Source of the DNA: Bowmanella denitrificans
GTDB lineage: Bacteria > Pseudomonadota > Gammaproteobacteria > Enterobacterales > Alteromonadaceae
Direction: 5' to 3'
Assembly: GCF_002887595.1 (NCBI RefSeq)
Contig: NZ_PEBU01000006.1
Coordinates: forward strand, 62,001 to 126,000
DNA: 64,000 nt
Shown here: positions 20,202 through 63,356 of the stretch, piece after piece
Numbering within the stretch: the stretch's first letter is position 1
Layout: each line of letters starts with the position of its first letter
Program-made: the position numbers and the translations under genes
Notes under the pieces: generated by a model
What the model was told of the DNA's origin: nothing
Seen by the model: only the letters and a program-made list of their open reading frames with translations
Database searches by the model: none

Positions 20202-21080
20202 TCAGGCGGTCTTTCCCAGCAGGCTGGCATTCTGTTTGTCCTGATACAGTGCTGCATCGGCCCGACTGAACAAGGCACCACGCTCTTCACCAGACTGATA
20301 GAGTCCTGTGCCTATACTGCAGCGCATATGGTGCTTGGCCAGCAAGGGTTGGTTGTGCATCGCCTGGCGAATGCGGTGACTGACCCGTTGTAACGTTGCG
20401 CTGTCAGCGTCTGGAATTAAACAACAAAATTCGTCACCACCGAAGCGAAAAGCAAAATCGGTATCCCTCAGGCTGGTGCTAATAGCTTGTGCCATAGCAA
20501 TCAGTACATTGTCACCCTCCTGGTGGCCAAAGTTGTCATTAATAGCTTTGAATTTATCCATGTCCAAGACCATCAGGCCGAACACTTCGCCACTGCGTTT
20601 GGCGTGGCTAAATAACCTGCTGAGATGTTCTTCAAAGCCGGCCCGGTTGCCCAGGCTGGTTAGATGGTCCTTGCTGGCCAAACGTTTAATCTCACTGTGC
20701 CTGATAACGTTGCGCAATTGCGGTGTCACAAGGGTATGGATCTCATCCAGTCGCCTGGTATCCAATGCATTCAGTGGTCGGTTAAAGTGATAGCGGATAG
20801 CCGTGGCGGTATCCCGCGGACAATCCATCAGTCGGGTTAGTGTACCGCTGCTACCCAAGGCTAATCGTCCTGCTGGCGACTGAATTTCCAAGCCACATAA
20901 TCCAAGGCGCACAGTTAACAGGTTTTGCAGGGTCTGGGCGAAATCCGCCAGGTCCAGACAGCCCAGCAAGGTTTCGAGGATATGCAGACGCTCGGCATCG
21001 CCCAATTGCTTGTCTATTTGGCTGAAGCGGAAAAAGCTATCAGAACCTGCGTTGTCGTAAAAGGGAAGATGTTGTTCCAC
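20202..21080 (-). CDS. GGDEF-domain protein, probable diguanylate cyclase
   Basis: Predicted to make cyclic di-GMP from two GTP. The C-terminal half holds a complete GGDEF domain: motif RFGGDEF intact (GGDEF at about residues 214-218) and an inhibitory I-site RxxD (RDTD) five residues before it. The N-terminal half has no clear transmembrane segment and resembles no sensor I can name; it may be a small GAF-like input. Start chosen at GTG 21080, with AGGAG six bases upstream (21087-21091). The frame also stays open to a TTG at 21152, which would add 24 residues. Convergent with tilS; divergent from the histidine kinase gene. Confidence 0.85.
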   Translation of the reverse strand: MEQHLPFYDNAGSDSFFRFSQIDKQLGDAERLHILETLLGCLDLADFAQTLQNLLTVRLGLCGLEIQSPAGRLALGSSGTLTRLMDCPRDTATAIRYHFNRPLNALDTRRLDEIHTLVTPQLRNVIRHSEIKRLASKDHLTSLGNRAGFEEHLSRLFSHAKRSGEVFGLMVLDMDKFKAINDNFGHQEGDNVLIAMAQAISTSLRDTDFAFRFGGDEFCCLIPDADSATLQRVSHRIRQAMHNQPLLAKHHMRCSIGTGLYQSGEERGALFSRADAALYQDKQNASLLGKTA

Positions 21081-21426
21081 CGTCTGCTCCTGGTTGCGTA
21101 ACGGCCTGTGCCGGCAACCTTTGCTATATTTTCTCTGCTTAGATTCGAGCAAAAACTATGCCGGACTCCTTGTGAGCATATTCGTCGGTAACCATGCTAT
21201 TGAAGCTTATGAACTTTTTTTGCCTTGAAGTCGAAGACTCTATGGCCATAGTGAGTTGGCGTTCTGGCCAGAGACGTCAAATAACCGCCGGTTATTGTTT
21301 AAATTGGTTATGCGCTGTTTGTTTAAGCCGGTATTTGACAATTGCTGCAGATATTTGTGCTTAGCTGCGCCTGTCACACTATATTGGTAAAGCAGATGTT
21401 CTTTTCGCTTTGGACAAGGAGCCCTG
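21081..21426. promoter_or_regulatory. Divergent intergenic region between GGDEF gene and histidine kinase gene
   Basis: This stretch must hold promoters for both flanking genes. A TTGACA lies at 21335-21340 on +, but no convincing -10 stands 16-18 bases downstream. TATATT at 21380-21385 is another possible -10. A perfect 17-base palindrome is at 21280-21296 and a 10-base one (TATGGCCATA) at 21241-21250. No credible extra gene is seen. Confidence 0.4.
21280..21296. promoter_or_regulatory. Perfect palindrome, possible operator
   Basis: AATAACCG-C-CGGTTATT, an uninterrupted 8+1+8 inverted repeat in the divergent region. The form fits a dimeric repressor or activator site, but no matching regulator is known. 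Confidence 0.4.
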
Positions 21427-23661
21427 ATGGAGCAGCACCTCAATGACTTTTTCCGCGCCGATTATATGCCGCATGGACATTGTTTTTTATGGCGACCGGA
21501 CATTCTGTGGCTGAATGTACTGTCCGATGCGCTGATTGCCACTGCTTACTTTACCATCCCTTTAGTGCTCTATCTGTTTGTCCGTCAACGGCCGGACATT
21601 CGTTTTGGCTGGATGCTGTATTTATTTGCCGCCTTTATCTTATGTTGTGGCGTGACCCACTTATTTGGCATCTATGTTATCTGGCACGGGGCTTATGGTT
21701 ACCACGGCCTGGCAAAGCTGGTCACAGCTATCGTTTCCATCAGTACTGCTTATGTGTTGATTCGGCGCCTGCCAGACGCGCTGGCTATGCCCAATTTATC
21801 GGAATATTCTCAGCATAAGGAAATGGCCTACCGGGCCGAGCTGGACAGGTTGGAGCTGATCAGAGAGCAGGAACGGCTGGCCATGGTGCGACTGGCAGTA
21901 GAAGGCTCCCCTTTTGGTATGCTGGTAACCGATGCTGGCGGACATATTCGTATGGTCAATTCTGCCCTGACCCGCATGTTTGGTTACAGTGAACAGGAAT
22001 TACTGAATGAACATGTCAATATGCTTCTACCGACAGAACAGCGCAGTCGTCACAGAAAGCTGGTAGAGGAAATCAGTATCGGTGCCCGTAGCTCAGGTTT
22101 AATGACCTCCAGGCTGGTGTATGGGGTGGCCAGAAATGGCGATAAAATCCCGGTGGAGGTGACCCTGCATCGCAGCGAAGTGGATGATGAGGTGCGGGTG
22201 TTTGCCACCGTGGTGGATATTAGTGAACGCTTGTCCTTTCAGGCCAGATTGGTGGAGGCCAATAACCGTTTTGAACGGGTTATCTCAGGTTCAAGAGACG
22301 CCCCCTGGGAATGGCATCCCAAAGATAACAGTAACTGGTTCTCACCGCGTTTCCATGAACTGTTGGGCTGGCCAGCTCAGGTGCCGGGCCACTTTGATAC
22401 CTGGATTGCTCATGTACACCCTGATTATCATGACAAAGTGATGGAACACTTAAAAAGTCACATCGAGCAGCGCAGCAAGTACGATATTAATTACCTGGGA
22501 CTGGCGGCAGACGGGACTTACCACTGGTTTAATACCAGGGGCGACAGCCAGCGGGATGAAAACGGCAATATTGTGATTATGTCCGGGGTGATTTCCGATA
22601 TTCAGGAAGAAAAGGAAATGGAAGCGGCGGTAATGCATAAAACGGCGTTTCTTGAGTCGGTATTTGCCGGCGCATCCTGTGGTTTACTGGTGCTCGACTG
22701 GGAAGAAGATGACAAGGTTAGCATCTCTGCCGTTAATCAACGTTTTAGCATTTTGTTGGGTGATCAGGCTGGCGATTTAGAGGGGCAGGAGCTGCATCAT
22801 CTGGCCCAGTCAGACGAGCGGGGCGTAATGGCTCGCTTGCAAGCACTGCTGTTTGGTTCGGCTATGGAAGCCGAGCAGGGCAGTCCGGTTGGTTTTCTAT
22901 TTCAGGCTCAGGAGCATTGGGTGCAGATAGATGTACATCCTATTTCCGACGCGAAAGGAGAATGGTTCAGAGTGATAGTGTCTGCCAGTGACGTCAGCGA
23001 ATTAAAGCAGGCCGAAGAGGAACTGGAAGAGGCCTTACAGGAGAAAGTTTCGCTGCTTAATGAAGTGCATCACCGAGTGAAGAACAACCTGCAAATTGTC
23101 AGCAGTCTGATGGATATCCAAAGCCGTCAGGTTAAAAAAGAAGATCTGGCGGTGATGAGCGATCTGAAAAACCGGGTGCGGGCCATGGCCCTGATCCACG
23201 AGTTACTCTATCAAAATGACAGCCTGGGCTCGATTAACTTGCAAAGTTATGTGCAGCGTCTGGTCAACCTTATCGGCGATACCCTGAATCACTCCAGTCG
23301 TGAACAACTGACCTTGGATATTCAGGCAGGAAGTGGCGAACTAAACATCAGCATAAACCAGATGGTGCCTTTGGGGCTGCTGATTTGTGAGGCGGTCACC
23401 AATGCCTTTAAATATGCCTTTAGCGGTCGCCCGGGTAAGTTGACCATCAGTATGAAAAGGGAAGACGCGCGGCTGCAACTGGCGATCTGTGACGATGGCC
23501 CGGGTTTTGATGCTGAGCTGTTCGAACAAGCCAGCCTGACCAGCCACCTTGGCTTTACCCTGATGAAAACCTTTGCCAAGCAAGCAGGTTTTACCATTCA
23601 GGTGGATGGCAGTCAGGGCACCTGTATTTATCTGACTGAACAGGCCAGCAATTCAGACTAG
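21427..23661 (+). CDS. Sensor histidine kinase with ethylene-receptor-like membrane domain, PAS repeats and HisKA_2
   Basis: The product is 744 residues. Residues about 27-118 are hydrophobic and align without gaps with the plant ETR1 sensor: SD (Asp 34), AYF (Tyr 41), IP (Pro 45) and CGVTH (Cys 74, His 78), all offset by nine from ETR1 residues Asp 25, Tyr 32, Pro 36, Cys 65 and His 69, the last two being the copper/ethylene ligands. Next come PAS segments at about 150-275, 280-400 and 405-535, then a HisKA_2 dimerisation motif EVHHRVKNNLQ (His 549 before Arg is the likely phospho-acceptor) and an HATPase domain (EAVTNAFKYAF, CDDGPGFD). Ethylene binding is inferred; a redox or other ligand is possible. 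ATG 21427 follows AAGGAG. It meets the next gene tail to tail. Confidence 0.9.
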   Translation: MEQHLNDFFRADYMPHGHCFLWRPDILWLNVLSDALIATAYFTIPLVLYLFVRQRPDIRFGWMLYLFAAFILCCGVTHLFGIYVIWHGAYGYHGLAKLVTAIVSISTAYVLIRRLPDALAMPNLSEYSQHKEMAYRAELDRLELIREQERLAMVRLAVEGSPFGMLVTDAGGHIRMVNSALTRMFGYSEQELLNEHVNMLLPTEQRSRHRKLVEEISIGARSSGLMTSRLVYGVARNGDKIPVEVTLHRSEVDDEVRVFATVVDISERLSFQARLVEANNRFERVISGSRDAPWEWHPKDNSNWFSPRFHELLGWPAQVPGHFDTWIAHVHPDYHDKVMEHLKSHIEQRSKYDINYLGLAADGTYHWFNTRGDSQRDENGNIVIMSGVISDIQEEKEMEAAVMHKTAFLESVFAGASCGLLVLDWEEDDKVSISAVNQRFSILLGDQAGDLEGQELHHLAQSDERGVMARLQALLFGSAMEAEQGSPVGFLFQAQEHWVQIDVHPISDAKGEWFRVIVSASDVSELKQAEEELEEALQEKVSLLNEVHHRVKNNLQIVSSLMDIQSRQVKKEDLAVMSDLKNRVRAMALIHELLYQNDSLGSINLQSYVQRLVNLIGDTLNHSSREQLTLDIQAGSGELNISINQMVPLGLLICEAVTNAFKYAFSGRPGKLTISMKREDARLQLAICDDGPGFDAELFEQASLTSHLGFTLMKTFAKQAGFTIQVDGSQGTCIYLTEQASNSD

Positions 23662-26069
23662 AACAAATTGCGGTTGCCGTCTTTATTGTCAGACAAGTAC
23701 CTGAGTAAATCATTTAGCGGCATGGGTTTGGCAAAATAATAGCCCTGCATGCTGTGTACGCCTTTGTCACGCAGGTAGTGCCATTGTTCCTTGGTCTCAA
23801 TGCCTTCGGCGGTAATCAGCAAGCCCAGGCTTCTGGCCAGGTTGATAATGGCCTCGATTATGATCTGGTGGCGGCTGTCGGTCCCCAGACTATCCACAAA
23901 GGTCCGGTCTATTTTTAGCTTGCTGACCGCCATTTCCGCCAGTCTGGATAAGGATGAATACCCGGTGCCGAAGTCATCAATGGCAATATTGACCCCGGTC
24001 TGGCGAATCTGCCAAAGCAGCATGGCGGCGTTTTCCGATTGCAGGGTGCTTTCGGTGACCTCCATTTCCAGATGGGCGGGGTTTATCTGACAATCCTGGA
24101 TAATTTCATTCAGGGCATCGAGGATTTCGCTGTCTTTTAACTGGGCACCGGATACATTAACCGCAACCCGAATATCGCTGAAGCCGCGCTCGTCCAACAG
24201 TTTCAATAACATGCAGGATTCTCGCAGCATATGCAGGCCGATACTTTGGATCAGGCCGGTTTCTTCCGCTACCGGAATAAAAGCATCAGGTGACACCATG
24301 CCCACGTCTTTGTCTATCCAGCGACACAGGGCTTCCACTCCCACCACCTGACCACTGTGGCCATCGACAATAGGTTGCCAGTGCGCGGTAATGCTCTGCT
24401 CGGTCAGAGCCTTACGCAGCCCCTGTTCGATAAACAGGCGATAGCGGACTACATCCACCAGATCATTGGAATAAAAGGTATAAGTGTACTTGCCCCGGCG
24501 CTTGGACTCATACATGGCGGCGTCTGCATGTTTAAGCAGTGACGCCGCGCAATCTACGCTTTCATCGGCAATGGCGACACCTATGCTGCAGGTGACCATA
24601 ATATCTCTGCCGCTGATATTAAATGGCTCGTTGCAGATGGCGATGATTTTTTCTGCCAGCCGCTCAAAGTCCTGACGCCGTTCTACGTCCTCGACTATCA
24701 CGACAAATTCATCGCCGCCCAGTCGAATCAGCACATCCTCGGCACGCATGATCTGCTGTAATCGCTGAGCAAACTCTATTAACAATTGATCGCCGGGCTC
24801 ATGGCCCATGGAATCGTTAATCAATTTAAAAGAGTCAATATCAATAAAAAACAAGCCAATTCCGCTACCTTTCTGACAATCCAGCTCCCCTAATACCTGG
24901 TTCATCAAATTTCGGTTGCCAAGGCCAGTCAGCCCATCACGATAGGCCATACGATTCAGTTCCCGTTCGGCCTTTTTCAGCGACGAGATATCGGTCAGGA
25001 TCATGATAAATAATTCAGGGTTGTGTTCGGTGGCAGCGATGCGACTGATATTTTGCAAGGCATGAAAATGACTGTGATCGCGTCGATGTACCACCACTTC
25101 ATGACGAATACTTTTGTTGCAGTCGGCCAGCACTTCATCGTGGCGCCTGTTGCCGGATAATACCATGGAGACCGGAGCGCCAATCACGTCATTGGCATTG
25201 AAGTGAGTGTGTTTATAGAAGGCCTTGTTCACCGAGCGAATGGTGAAATCTGAGTAGAGTACAATCACCGACTCATCAATATTGGCCAGAATGTTGTAGG
25301 CGGTGCGAAGCTCATTGACAAAATTTTCCCGTTCCGATACGTCTTTAACCGCGCCAATGCGAATCAGGCCCTGTTCCAGGGTCATGTCACTTAAGTACAG
25401 CTCTATCCAACGTTCGTCCTGAACGTCCTCACTTCGGGCTTTGAGTTTAAAGGTGCGACTGACATTTTGTCCGTTACGCAGCATGGCTTCCAGTTCGTCC
25501 ACATCCTCCAGCGCCAGACGGGCGAAAAAATCGTGAGCCTTGAGTTCCACCTTATCGCCAACGATATTAACTTGTTCACCGAACAAGCCCTCAAACAGCA
25601 CCGTGCCGCGCTGCACGTTGTATTCCCAAAGCCCCAGCTTAGCTGCATGCACGGCTGCTTTGAGACGCTTTTCGGAGCGCTCAGTGATTTTTTCATATCT
25701 GTGCCTGGCCAGGGCGGTTTCTATACTGGCTTTTAACTCCCGCACATTATATGGCTTGACGATATAACCGTAAGGTGCAGTCAGACCGGTGCGGCGGATA
25801 AGGTCGTCACTGGTGTAGGCGGTAAGGTAAACTACCGGAATATGTAATTCTGCGCCAATCCGTTGGGCAGCGTTGATGCCATCCCCCCCAGCACCCAGGT
25901 TAATGTCCATCATCACCAAATCAGGCTGATGCTGCTTGGCCATGTCAAAGGCTTCTTTTTCAGAACTGGCAATACAGCAGACATGGTAGCCGTTATCCTG
26001 CAAATCCAGAGAAAGATTCAGGGCGATGAGCTGTTCATCCTCGACAATCAACAAAGTGCTACGTTCCAT
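23658..26069 (-). CDS. Response regulator with REC, PAS, GGDEF and EAL domains
   Basis: The product is 803 residues. The receiver domain (1-120) has the acidic pair near 10-11, phospho-acceptor Asp 55 (VMMDINLG), Thr 83 and Lys 105 (IVKPY). One or two PAS-type segments span about 140-375. The GGDEF domain has an intact GGDEF at 451-455 preceded by an RxxD I-site (RAED). The EAL domain has EAL at 579-581 and DDFGTGYSSLSRL, so both synthesis and hydrolysis of c-di-GMP are possible. The start is ATG 26069 behind AAGGAAGG. Its TAG and the kinase TAG share the four bases CTAG at 23658-23661, so the two genes are probably cognate. Confidence 0.9.
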   Translation of the reverse strand: MERSTLLIVEDEQLIALNLSLDLQDNGYHVCCIASSEKEAFDMAKQHQPDLVMMDINLGAGGDGINAAQRIGAELHIPVVYLTAYTSDDLIRRTGLTAPYGYIVKPYNVRELKASIETALARHRYEKITERSEKRLKAAVHAAKLGLWEYNVQRGTVLFEGLFGEQVNIVGDKVELKAHDFFARLALEDVDELEAMLRNGQNVSRTFKLKARSEDVQDERWIELYLSDMTLEQGLIRIGAVKDVSERENFVNELRTAYNILANIDESVIVLYSDFTIRSVNKAFYKHTHFNANDVIGAPVSMVLSGNRRHDEVLADCNKSIRHEVVVHRRDHSHFHALQNISRIAATEHNPELFIMILTDISSLKKAERELNRMAYRDGLTGLGNRNLMNQVLGELDCQKGSGIGLFFIDIDSFKLINDSMGHEPGDQLLIEFAQRLQQIMRAEDVLIRLGGDEFVVIVEDVERRQDFERLAEKIIAICNEPFNISGRDIMVTCSIGVAIADESVDCAASLLKHADAAMYESKRRGKYTYTFYSNDLVDVVRYRLFIEQGLRKALTEQSITAHWQPIVDGHSGQVVGVEALCRWIDKDVGMVSPDAFIPVAEETGLIQSIGLHMLRESCMLLKLLDERGFSDIRVAVNVSGAQLKDSEILDALNEIIQDCQINPAHLEMEVTESTLQSENAAMLLWQIRQTGVNIAIDDFGTGYSSLSRLAEMAVSKLKIDRTFVDSLGTDSRHQIIIEAIINLARSLGLLITAEGIETKEQWHYLRDKGVHSMQGYYFAKPMPLNDLLRYLSDNKDGNRNLF

Positions 26070-61799: not shown

Positions 61800-63356
61800 A
61801 TGCGTCTGGAGATCAGCTGTAAGGATCGCCTTGGGATTACCCAGGATGTGCTGGATATACTGGTTGAATATGAGATTAATCTACGCGGTATAGAAATCGA
61901 CAGCAGTGGGAAAATCTTTTTGCACTTCCCCAATGTTGAGTTTGCTGAATTTCAGCACTTGATGCCAAAGATTAGGCGCATAGAAGGGATAGAAGACGTA
62001 AAAACCACGCCATTTATGCCAATTGAGCGAGAGCAAAATCAACTTAGAGCCTTACTTCGTACCTTGCCAGACCCGGTTTTTTCCATAGACAGTCGAGGCA
62101 ATATTCTGTTGGTCAACGAAGCCGTGGTATCCAGTCTGGAAAGTTCTTATGAAGAAATCGCCGGCAGGGAAATTACTGACCTGGTCAAGGGATTCAACTT
62201 CAGCCGCTGGTTGGATGGTAAGCAGGTTTTAGCACAAACCCAAAAGGTGAAATTTATTGAACAGGATTTCCTGGCTGATATTTTGCCAGTGATGGTGGCA
62301 GATGGTGATGCAGATGCTGTCCTGGCAGGCGCGGTGTTGTTACTTAAATCAGAATACCGCTTGGGGCAGCAATTAACCGTGTTTCATCAGGCCAGTAACG
62401 ATTCCTTTAATGAAATCCAGGCCACCAGTAGTCAGATGAAAAAGGTGGTGCGTGAAGCCAAAAAGATGGCCGAGCTGGATGCACCAATTTTATTGGTAGG
62501 CGAGACCGGTGTCGGCAAAGAAATGATTGCCAGAGCGTGCCATCGTGCCAGCCGTCGCAGTAGCCACGAGTTTGTGTTGCTGAATTGTGCGTCTATTCCT
62601 GATGACATGGCCGAGCAAGAGTTGTTTGGCTATGGACCTGGGGCCTATGGCCAGAAACAAAGTAAGAGTGGGTTACTGGAGCAGGCCGAAAACGGCACGT
62701 TGTTTTTAGATGAAGTAGGGGACATGTCAATGTCCCTGCAAGCAAAATTATTGCGGGTACTGCAAGACGGCTCCTTCCGACGGGTTGGTGATGCCAGGGA
62801 AGTGGTGGTTAATGTGCGGATCATTGGCACCACACAAAAAGATCTTGCCCAGATGGTGATGGAAGGGCGCTTCCGCGAAGATCTTTATTACCGTCTGAAT
62901 GTGTTGAGCCTGGTTGTGCCGCCACTTCGGGAACGTAAAGCTGATATTATTGGTTTAGCAGAGCATTTTCTTAAAAATCAAAGTACTAAACTCGGGAGAC
63001 GGCCGCCAAAACTCAACAAGTCTTGCGTGGAGTTTCTGCAAAATTATCCTTGGCCGGGTAATGTCAGACAGTTGGAAAATACCTTATACAGGGCTCTGAC
63101 ATTGCTGGAGCGGGATGAGCTGGGTAAAGAAGATATTCAACTGCCAGACAGTGCTATGAGCTCTGGCTATTTTTCGGATGAGCTTGAAGGCACGTTAGAT
63201 CAAGAAGTTAAGCGATTTGAGAAAGATCTGTTACGCCGATTGTATCCGAGTTATCCCAGCACCAGGCAATTGGCCCGGAAGCTGGGGTTAAGTCATACGG
63301 CAATTGCCAACAAGCTGAGGGAGTATGGGATCAGTAAGAAGACCGTAAAGGTTTGA
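61800..63356 (+). CDS. tyrR: Transcriptional regulator TyrR
   Basis: Regulator of aromatic amino acid synthesis, transport or breakdown. The product is 518 residues (E. coli 513). ATG 61800 gives MRLEISCKDRLGITQDVLDI, the ACT domain start; TTG 61788 is in frame but less likely. Domains: ACT (1-75), PAS (78-190), AAA+ with GETGVGKE and TLFLDEVGDM, and C-terminal helix-turn-helix (STRQLARKLGLSHTAIANKL). The sigma-54 loop GAFTGA is replaced by GAYGQK, as expected for a sigma-70-type regulator. A TyrR box lies just upstream. Confidence 0.95.
   Translation: MRLEISCKDRLGITQDVLDILVEYEINLRGIEIDSSGKIFLHFPNVEFAEFQHLMPKIRRIEGIEDVKTTPFMPIEREQNQLRALLRTLPDPVFSIDSRGNILLVNEAVVSSLESSYEEIAGREITDLVKGFNFSRWLDGKQVLAQTQKVKFIEQDFLADILPVMVADGDADAVLAGAVLLLKSEYRLGQQLTVFHQASNDSFNEIQATSSQMKKVVREAKKMAELDAPILLVGETGVGKEMIARACHRASRRSSHEFVLLNCASIPDDMAEQELFGYGPGAYGQKQSKSGLLEQAENGTLFLDEVGDMSMSLQAKLLRVLQDGSFRRVGDAREVVVNVRIIGTTQKDLAQMVMEGRFREDLYYRLNVLSLVVPPLRERKADIIGLAEHFLKNQSTKLGRRPPKLNKSCVEFLQNYPWPGNVRQLENTLYRALTLLERDELGKEDIQLPDSAMSSGYFSDELEGTLDQEVKRFEKDLLRRLYPSYPSTRQLARKLGLSHTAIANKLREYGISKKTVKV

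Follow-up and report, generated by a model that had tools for sequence, protein, structure and literature searches.

A predicted ethylene receptor kinase of Bowmanella denitrificans and its probable link to cyclic di-GMP

Bacterial ethylene receptors are known from Synechocystis and Azospirillum, and the sensor considered here is thus not itself new. Both SynEtr1/UirS (Slr1212) of Synechocystis (PMC5812497) and AzoEtr1 of Azospirillum brasilense (PMC11819568) are reported to bind ethylene. In Azospirillum, biofilm is reduced by ethylene or by loss of AzoEtr1, and ethylene lowers c-di-GMP in metabolomics, through a pathway that the authors state to be unknown (PMC11819568). A diguanylate cyclase gene also adjoins GeiEtr2 of Geitlerinema (PMC6682694). 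Beyond the Azospirillum drop and the GeiEtr2 neighbor, a link between ethylene receptors and c-di-GMP is undescribed in the accessible text of the open-licence literature, where fusions may be drawn in a published figure. Here we examine a locus of B. denitrificans for which the best overall explanation, with a probability of about two in three, is a bacterial ethylene receptor controlling c-di-GMP through a convergently transcribed regulator.

The window analyzed (64,000 nucleotides, positions 62,001 to 126,000 of contig NZ_PEBU01000006.1) holds an ORF at 21427..23661, plus strand, for a sensor histidine kinase of 744 amino acids with the Pfam order ETR1_N, PAS, PAS_3, HisKA_2, HATPase. The initial annotation, made from the letters alone, had claimed an ethylene-receptor sensor fused to PAS repeats and a HisKA_2 kinase, and Pfam recovered every part: the ETR1_N domain at residues 26-121 (21502..21789, +), PAS domains at residues 153-268 and 305-389 (21883..22593, +), the HisKA_2 dimerization/phosphoacceptor domain at residues 546-616 (23062..23274, +; E=4.7e-25), with the motif HHRVKNN at 548-554, and HATPase_c (23368..23637, +; E=3.6e-10). 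The ETR1_N match (PF25487) is highly significant, with E=9.5e-35 and a score of 119.2 bits (cut-off, 27), and runs over model positions 2-97 of 97. The annotation had named lack of a significant hit to this family as grounds for dropping the idea, and the search went the other way. It is the single match in the whole 5.48-Mb Bowmanella genome, and none of 14 control genomes gave one; the match is therefore far beyond chance. The N-terminus of ETR1 scored 6.7e-34 against the same model. Aligned with this sequence, kinase residues 33-78 correspond to ETR1 without gaps at an offset of nine, just as the annotation had reported.

The structure prediction that the annotation had suggested agrees with this assignment. 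AlphaFold2 (alignment n=74) gives three long helices, at residues 24-54, 61-87, and 90-119, with a mean pLDDT of 89.7, and the hydropathy maxima of the N-terminus fall near residues 40, 73, and 103. The predicted transmembrane helices are thus three in number, as expected of the ETR1_N family. Residues 1-135 found no match among solved chains in the PDB at E up to 1. For the kinase core, the nearest solved chains are those of blue-light-activated histidine kinase 2, and a PhyK model is listed in NCBIfam, under its cut-off.

By alignment, the predicted ethylene/copper site comprises D34, Y41, I44, P45, I71, C74, and H78 (21526..21660, +). Their ETR1 equivalents, D25, Y32, I35, P36, I62, C65, and H69, are what we take to be the seven residues that ETR1 needs for ethylene binding. 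All seven are kept in the Bowmanella kinase: the five singled out in the annotation (Asp 34, Tyr 41, Pro 45, Cys 74, and His 78) and, in addition, I44 and I71. ETR1 Asp25, Cys65, and His69 are named in a published report (PMC12643061). The same seven are also kept in three Bowmanella orthologs sharing 62-75% identity with the window kinase. Such conservation argues against a vestigial sensor, in which the PAS domains would signal and ETR1_N would merely anchor the protein; since two or more PAS domains separate the sensor from the kinase core, this arrangement can be pictured, and we regard it as barely plausible.

Across 52 ETR1_N homologs over the Pfam cut-off, the equivalents of C74 and of H78 are each present in 49, and one or the other is lost in five, so the fold can remain in use when the site is incomplete. 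This leaves some room for a Bowmanella domain that keeps its copper site and responds to a cue other than ethylene (copper itself, oxygen, CO, or a different small olefin), its c-di-GMP output being unchanged; a further input might also enter through the PAS domains. That version seems unlikely to us, given that the Bowmanella kinase retains seven of seven site residues, that two bacterial relatives, AzoEtr1 (PMC11819568) and SynEtr1/UirS (PMC5812497), bind ethylene, and that Haliea, a genus with ethylene-growing members (PMC4036023), carries fused forms of the sensor. Ethylene is the presumed ligand, held here, as in the annotation, as an inference. As a separate observation, L179, L180, L183, L201, and L202 have ETR1_N domains over the Pfam cut-off in which the copper-site cysteine or histidine is lost; these are probably decaying or tuned to a different signal. 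L183 (L165 in the residue table) has lost the site cysteine while its REC-GGDEF neighbor is still there, and thus the c-di-GMP link can outlive the site.

Outside the Pfam model and before the first membrane helix, homolog alignment revealed a further motif, P15-H16-G17-H18-C19 (21469..21483, +), placed at a short helix, 16-22, in the AlphaFold2 model. H16 is present in 47 and C19 in 48 of the 52 ETR1_N homologs found by Pfam, making PHGxC nearly as conserved as C74/H78; this count leaves out the loci from named genomes, because their search patterns included the PHGHC stretch. Both PHGxC and C74/H78 are present in 45 of the 52 and neither in 4, with C74/H78 alone in 2 and PHGxC alone in 1. 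Their coupled loss gives a Fisher value of 0.0003 with descent ignored; on a tree, it comes down to about four independent losses and is not significant. We consider the coupled loss suggestive, a lead toward PHGxC as part of the copper site. The motif could serve in copper entry, as an extra ligand, or as a dimer contact. A literature search on the motif found no paper.

The likely partner of the kinase lies tail to tail with it, the two stop codons overlapping by 4 bases. The gene (23658..26069, minus strand; ORF, Pfam, and motifs) encodes a protein of 803 amino acids with the order REC-PAS-GGDEF-EAL, in which the motifs MMDINLG, VKPYN, RxxD-5-GGDEF, EAL, NVSG, EVTES, DDFGTG, KIDR, and AEGIE are in place and the RxxD is I-site-like. 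With both GGDEF and EAL motifs intact, it is predicted to be a bifunctional c-di-GMP enzyme; its best NCBIfam models are phosphodiesterases, all under cut-off except the generic GGDEF domain. The receiver (25722..26051, minus strand; Pfam and nearest solved chain) is closest among solved chains to 1s8n, a "putative antiterminator" (E=1.2e-20), which we take to be Rv1626/PdtaR, the partner of the HisKA_2 kinase PdtaS. The PhyR receiver model of NCBIfam matches partner residues 4-123, under cut-off. Receivers of the PdtaR/PhyR type pair with HisKA_2/HWE kinases, and the partner receiver, as judged from its relatives, would fit a kinase of this class.

The convergent orientation counts against the pairing, since the two genes do not form one operon. 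One can envision an ethylene receptor that acts on another response regulator, with the c-di-GMP gene a bystander; the Bowmanella genome has 56 matches to the partner's receiver, itself included. The next best of these, though, scores 50.8 bits, compared with 263 for the partner receiver. The locus across five Bowmanella genomes also speaks against a bystander. Kinase and 803-aa regulator are present together at the same locus in four, and the fifth (G003) has neither, with the flanks syntenic on both sides; its best match to the regulator is 35% over residues 222-795, the receiver not included. The kinase and the regulator are thus inherited together in Bowmanella. The kinase is also the only match to the HisKA_2 family, the family that this count covers (HWE left out), in each of the four ETR-positive genomes, and G003 has none. 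Given the joint presence and absence, and the gene order around the regulator's relatives described below, we do not favor bystander status for the 803-aa gene and consider it quite improbable.

The locus as a whole gains and loses genes. By eye, we take its flanking genes to be dnaE, accA, tilS, a GGDEF gene, an antiporter, a patatin-like gene, and proS. The GGDEF protein encoded upstream of the kinase (20202..21152, minus strand; Pfam) was set aside as a member of the system; G003 keeps a 47%-identical counterpart without kinase and partner, and the gene is therefore probably outside the system. In three of the five Bowmanella genomes, locus comparison places a 654-aa gene, antiporter-like by eye, between this GGDEF gene and the place of the kinase (L019:5016-6980, L021:5025-6989, and L168:9401-11365); it is not in the window.

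A sample of 295 genomes of the order contains ten others with relatives of the regulator's front half, and gene neighborhoods were read for nine of these, in four genera (G050 left out). Seven of the nine align over almost all of the regulator; for two, the alignment covers the receiver and the GGDEF-EAL part. Every one has an adjacent same-strand HisKA_2/HWE kinase, upstream in seven cases and downstream in two, which argues further against a bystander. In four, all from genus g24 (G027, G711, G969, and G700), this kinase carries PAS_2-GAF-PHY, a phytochrome; in the remaining five it carries PAS domains. The kinase-regulator pair is therefore constant and the sensor variable, and the Bowmanella system looks like a sensor swap, its regulator's relatives adjoining kinases of the same class with phytochrome or PAS sensors. 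The sensor part can also be followed to another core: the kinase of L022, in G025, aligns with residues 1-452 of the window kinase, the sensor and PAS part, at 41%, and domain models built for this analysis assign its core to the ordinary HisKA kind. There, and in many other gammaproteobacterial genomes, the gene order is kinase, receiver, REC-GGDEF.

The annotation had placed such sensors in cyanobacteria and a few proteobacteria. This understates the spread, as ETR1_N over the cut-off is found in 15 of 59 near relatives (16 with any match), in 12 of 369 genomes of the class sample, and in 28 of 398 of the phylum sample, the window genome being included in each.

We defined a c-di-GMP link as fusion of ETR1_N to GGDEF or a REC-c-di-GMP enzyme within two genes. 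Among near relatives, 13 of 16 ETR genes (window included) have the link, compared with 4 of 38 control kinases (p=9e-7, Fisher); with Bowmanella counted once, the figure is 10/13 (p=1.7e-5, Fisher). All of the link p-values ignore shared descent. The 38 controls were hand-picked at roughly every fourth place among the HisKA matches listed, a few overlapping places being exchanged or dropped; drawn from 8 genomes, they may include mutual orthologs, and their kinase subtype is unmatched. None of them is a fusion, and if the criterion is widened to every GGDEF or EAL gene at up to two genes' distance, they reach 7/38. At one-gene distance only, the link falls to 6 of 16 ETR genes of the family versus 4 of 38 controls, because a lone receiver lies between in most relatives. 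Further gammaproteobacterial ETR genes have the link in 6 of 15 cases, two of the six (G700 and G711) from the window's family, and other Pseudomonadota in 0 of 16, one of which has an adjacent GGDEF-EAL gene without a receiver. For loci from named genomes, sorted as gamma or non-gamma by record name, the link is present at 40 of 51 gamma loci (35/46 without five repeats of first-set genomes; Fisher, 8.6e-10) and at 0 of 27 non-gamma loci, where several contigs end close to the gene. The gene-context counts leave out G100 (gamma), G580:C233, and, in G006, a fragment of 26 residues; L058, L097, L190, L191, L198, and L203 stand outside them because the domain models built here missed the sensor ORF. 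A rapid tree built from the short domain (119 rows) requires no fewer than 12 changes of state for the link and no fewer than 3 for fusion. The c-di-GMP context of ETR genes is thus recurrent in gammaproteobacteria, and together with joint inheritance in Bowmanella and the regulator's relatives it supports the pairing with a c-di-GMP regulator that the annotation had claimed.

In thirteen ORFs, ETR1_N and GGDEF are joined in one protein, two of them also with PAS and EAL (ETR1_N-PAS-GGDEF-EAL by Pfam; L170:4951-8034 and L173:5406-7976). All have GG[DE]EF, and the C-x-x-x-H stretch is present in 13/13 (L170 being L127 in the residue table); Pfam confirmed six of the thirteen. The small ETR-GGDEF fusions are 313-397 aa as called. 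Of the thirteen, Haliea contributes two, in H. salexigens and H. alexandrii. Two further strains of this genus are reported to grow on ethylene, attaching to the vessel wall meanwhile, and ethylene concentrations in coastal water and rock pools lie between tens and hundreds of pmol per litre (PMC4036023).

Other ETR arrangements were seen as well. In split receptors, the ethylene sensor is a protein of its own, 182-253 aa as called, and the histidine kinase is encoded by a separate adjoining gene (L091:8001-8549, L101:5669-6217, L105:721-1335, L084:7989-8585, and L078:1383-2144); the sensor protein consists of ETR1_N and a likely coiled coil, at whose end these proteins share a REER-type ELK..N.L stretch. 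At L027, L036, L045, L181, and L183, hybrid ETR kinases with C-terminal receivers lie divergent beside a REC-GGDEF gene, which by predicted domain content is a further arrangement of the c-di-GMP link.

How might the Bowmanella system work? From the conserved residues and the receptors tested elsewhere, we imagine that the three membrane helices hold Cu(I) via C74 and H78 (with D34) and bind ethylene. Binding would, via the PAS domains, alter HisKA_2 autophosphorylation at HHRVKNN, and the phosphate may then pass, as genome context suggests, to the receiver of the 803-aa REC-PAS-GGDEF-EAL regulator. The phosphorylated regulator would shift the making versus the breaking of c-di-GMP, a messenger often deciding between swimming and sticking, and hence attachment versus motility. 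As to direction, our guess by analogy with Azospirillum is that ethylene would lower c-di-GMP.

Taken more broadly, the ethylene receptor of gammaproteobacteria could be chiefly a c-di-GMP input, fitted several times, with ethylene a general marine attachment cue and the bacterial PHGxC motif perhaps serving copper. We hold this wider view tentatively, at a little short of even odds. The routes would be exchange of the sensor on a HisKA_2/HWE pair which in other settings reads light via phytochrome, a kinase-REC-REC-GGDEF operon, and direct fusion to GGDEF. If so, ethylene possibly helps these bacteria find algae or, in Haliea, food, and PHGxC, which plant ETR1 does not have, may give bacterial sensors additional ligands or a copper entry route. 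The fusions are predicted single-protein ethylene-sensor diguanylate cyclases, present in cultured strains such as those of H. salexigens and H. alexandrii, and small fused proteins are handy targets for a sensor domain without a PDB match.

Compared with known systems, the likeness to plant ETR1 lies in the three-helix copper/ethylene site, gap-free over residues 33-78. The plant receptor has a GAF domain, resides in the ER membrane, and signals through CTR1, in all of which the Bowmanella kinase differs; the aligned ETR1 sequence has no PHGxC and no histidine at H16, with a cysteine aligned with C19. PdtaS with PdtaR and PhyK with PhyR are HisKA_2/HWE kinase-receiver pairings that resemble the Bowmanella pair in the classes of kinase core and receiver, with NCBIfam scores under the cut-offs, and have other sensors and other outputs. 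The phytochrome-HWE pairs of g24 share the regulator architecture (34-36% identity) and the same kinase class alongside. They differ in having phytochrome instead of ETR1_N and in lying on the same strand rather than convergent; by best score their kinases fall to HWE and not to HisKA_2, and three of the four have a C-terminal receiver (Pfam).

Among the ethylene receptors, SynEtr1/UirS is likewise a bacterial two-component kinase with an ethylene-binding domain and acts on motility; it is reported to be a cyanobacteriochrome as well, and has UirR and LsiR as its regulators instead of a c-di-GMP enzyme (PMC5812497). AzoEtr1 shares ETR1_N, PAS, histidine kinase, and the seven binding residues. 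At 525 aa it has one PAS, and just downstream is a 135-aa receiver without a recognized output domain (PMC11819568); the HisKA_2 core and the GGDEF-EAL regulator are on the Bowmanella side. The Bowmanella arrangement therefore offers, in another lineage, the kind of link that is missing there, and, while no proof of the same pathway in Azospirillum, it provides a candidate enzyme, co-inherited with the receptor, for the step from ethylene to c-di-GMP, whose pathway that paper calls unknown (PMC11819568). Otherwise a known kind of bacterial ethylene receptor, the system is new in its output wiring to c-di-GMP.
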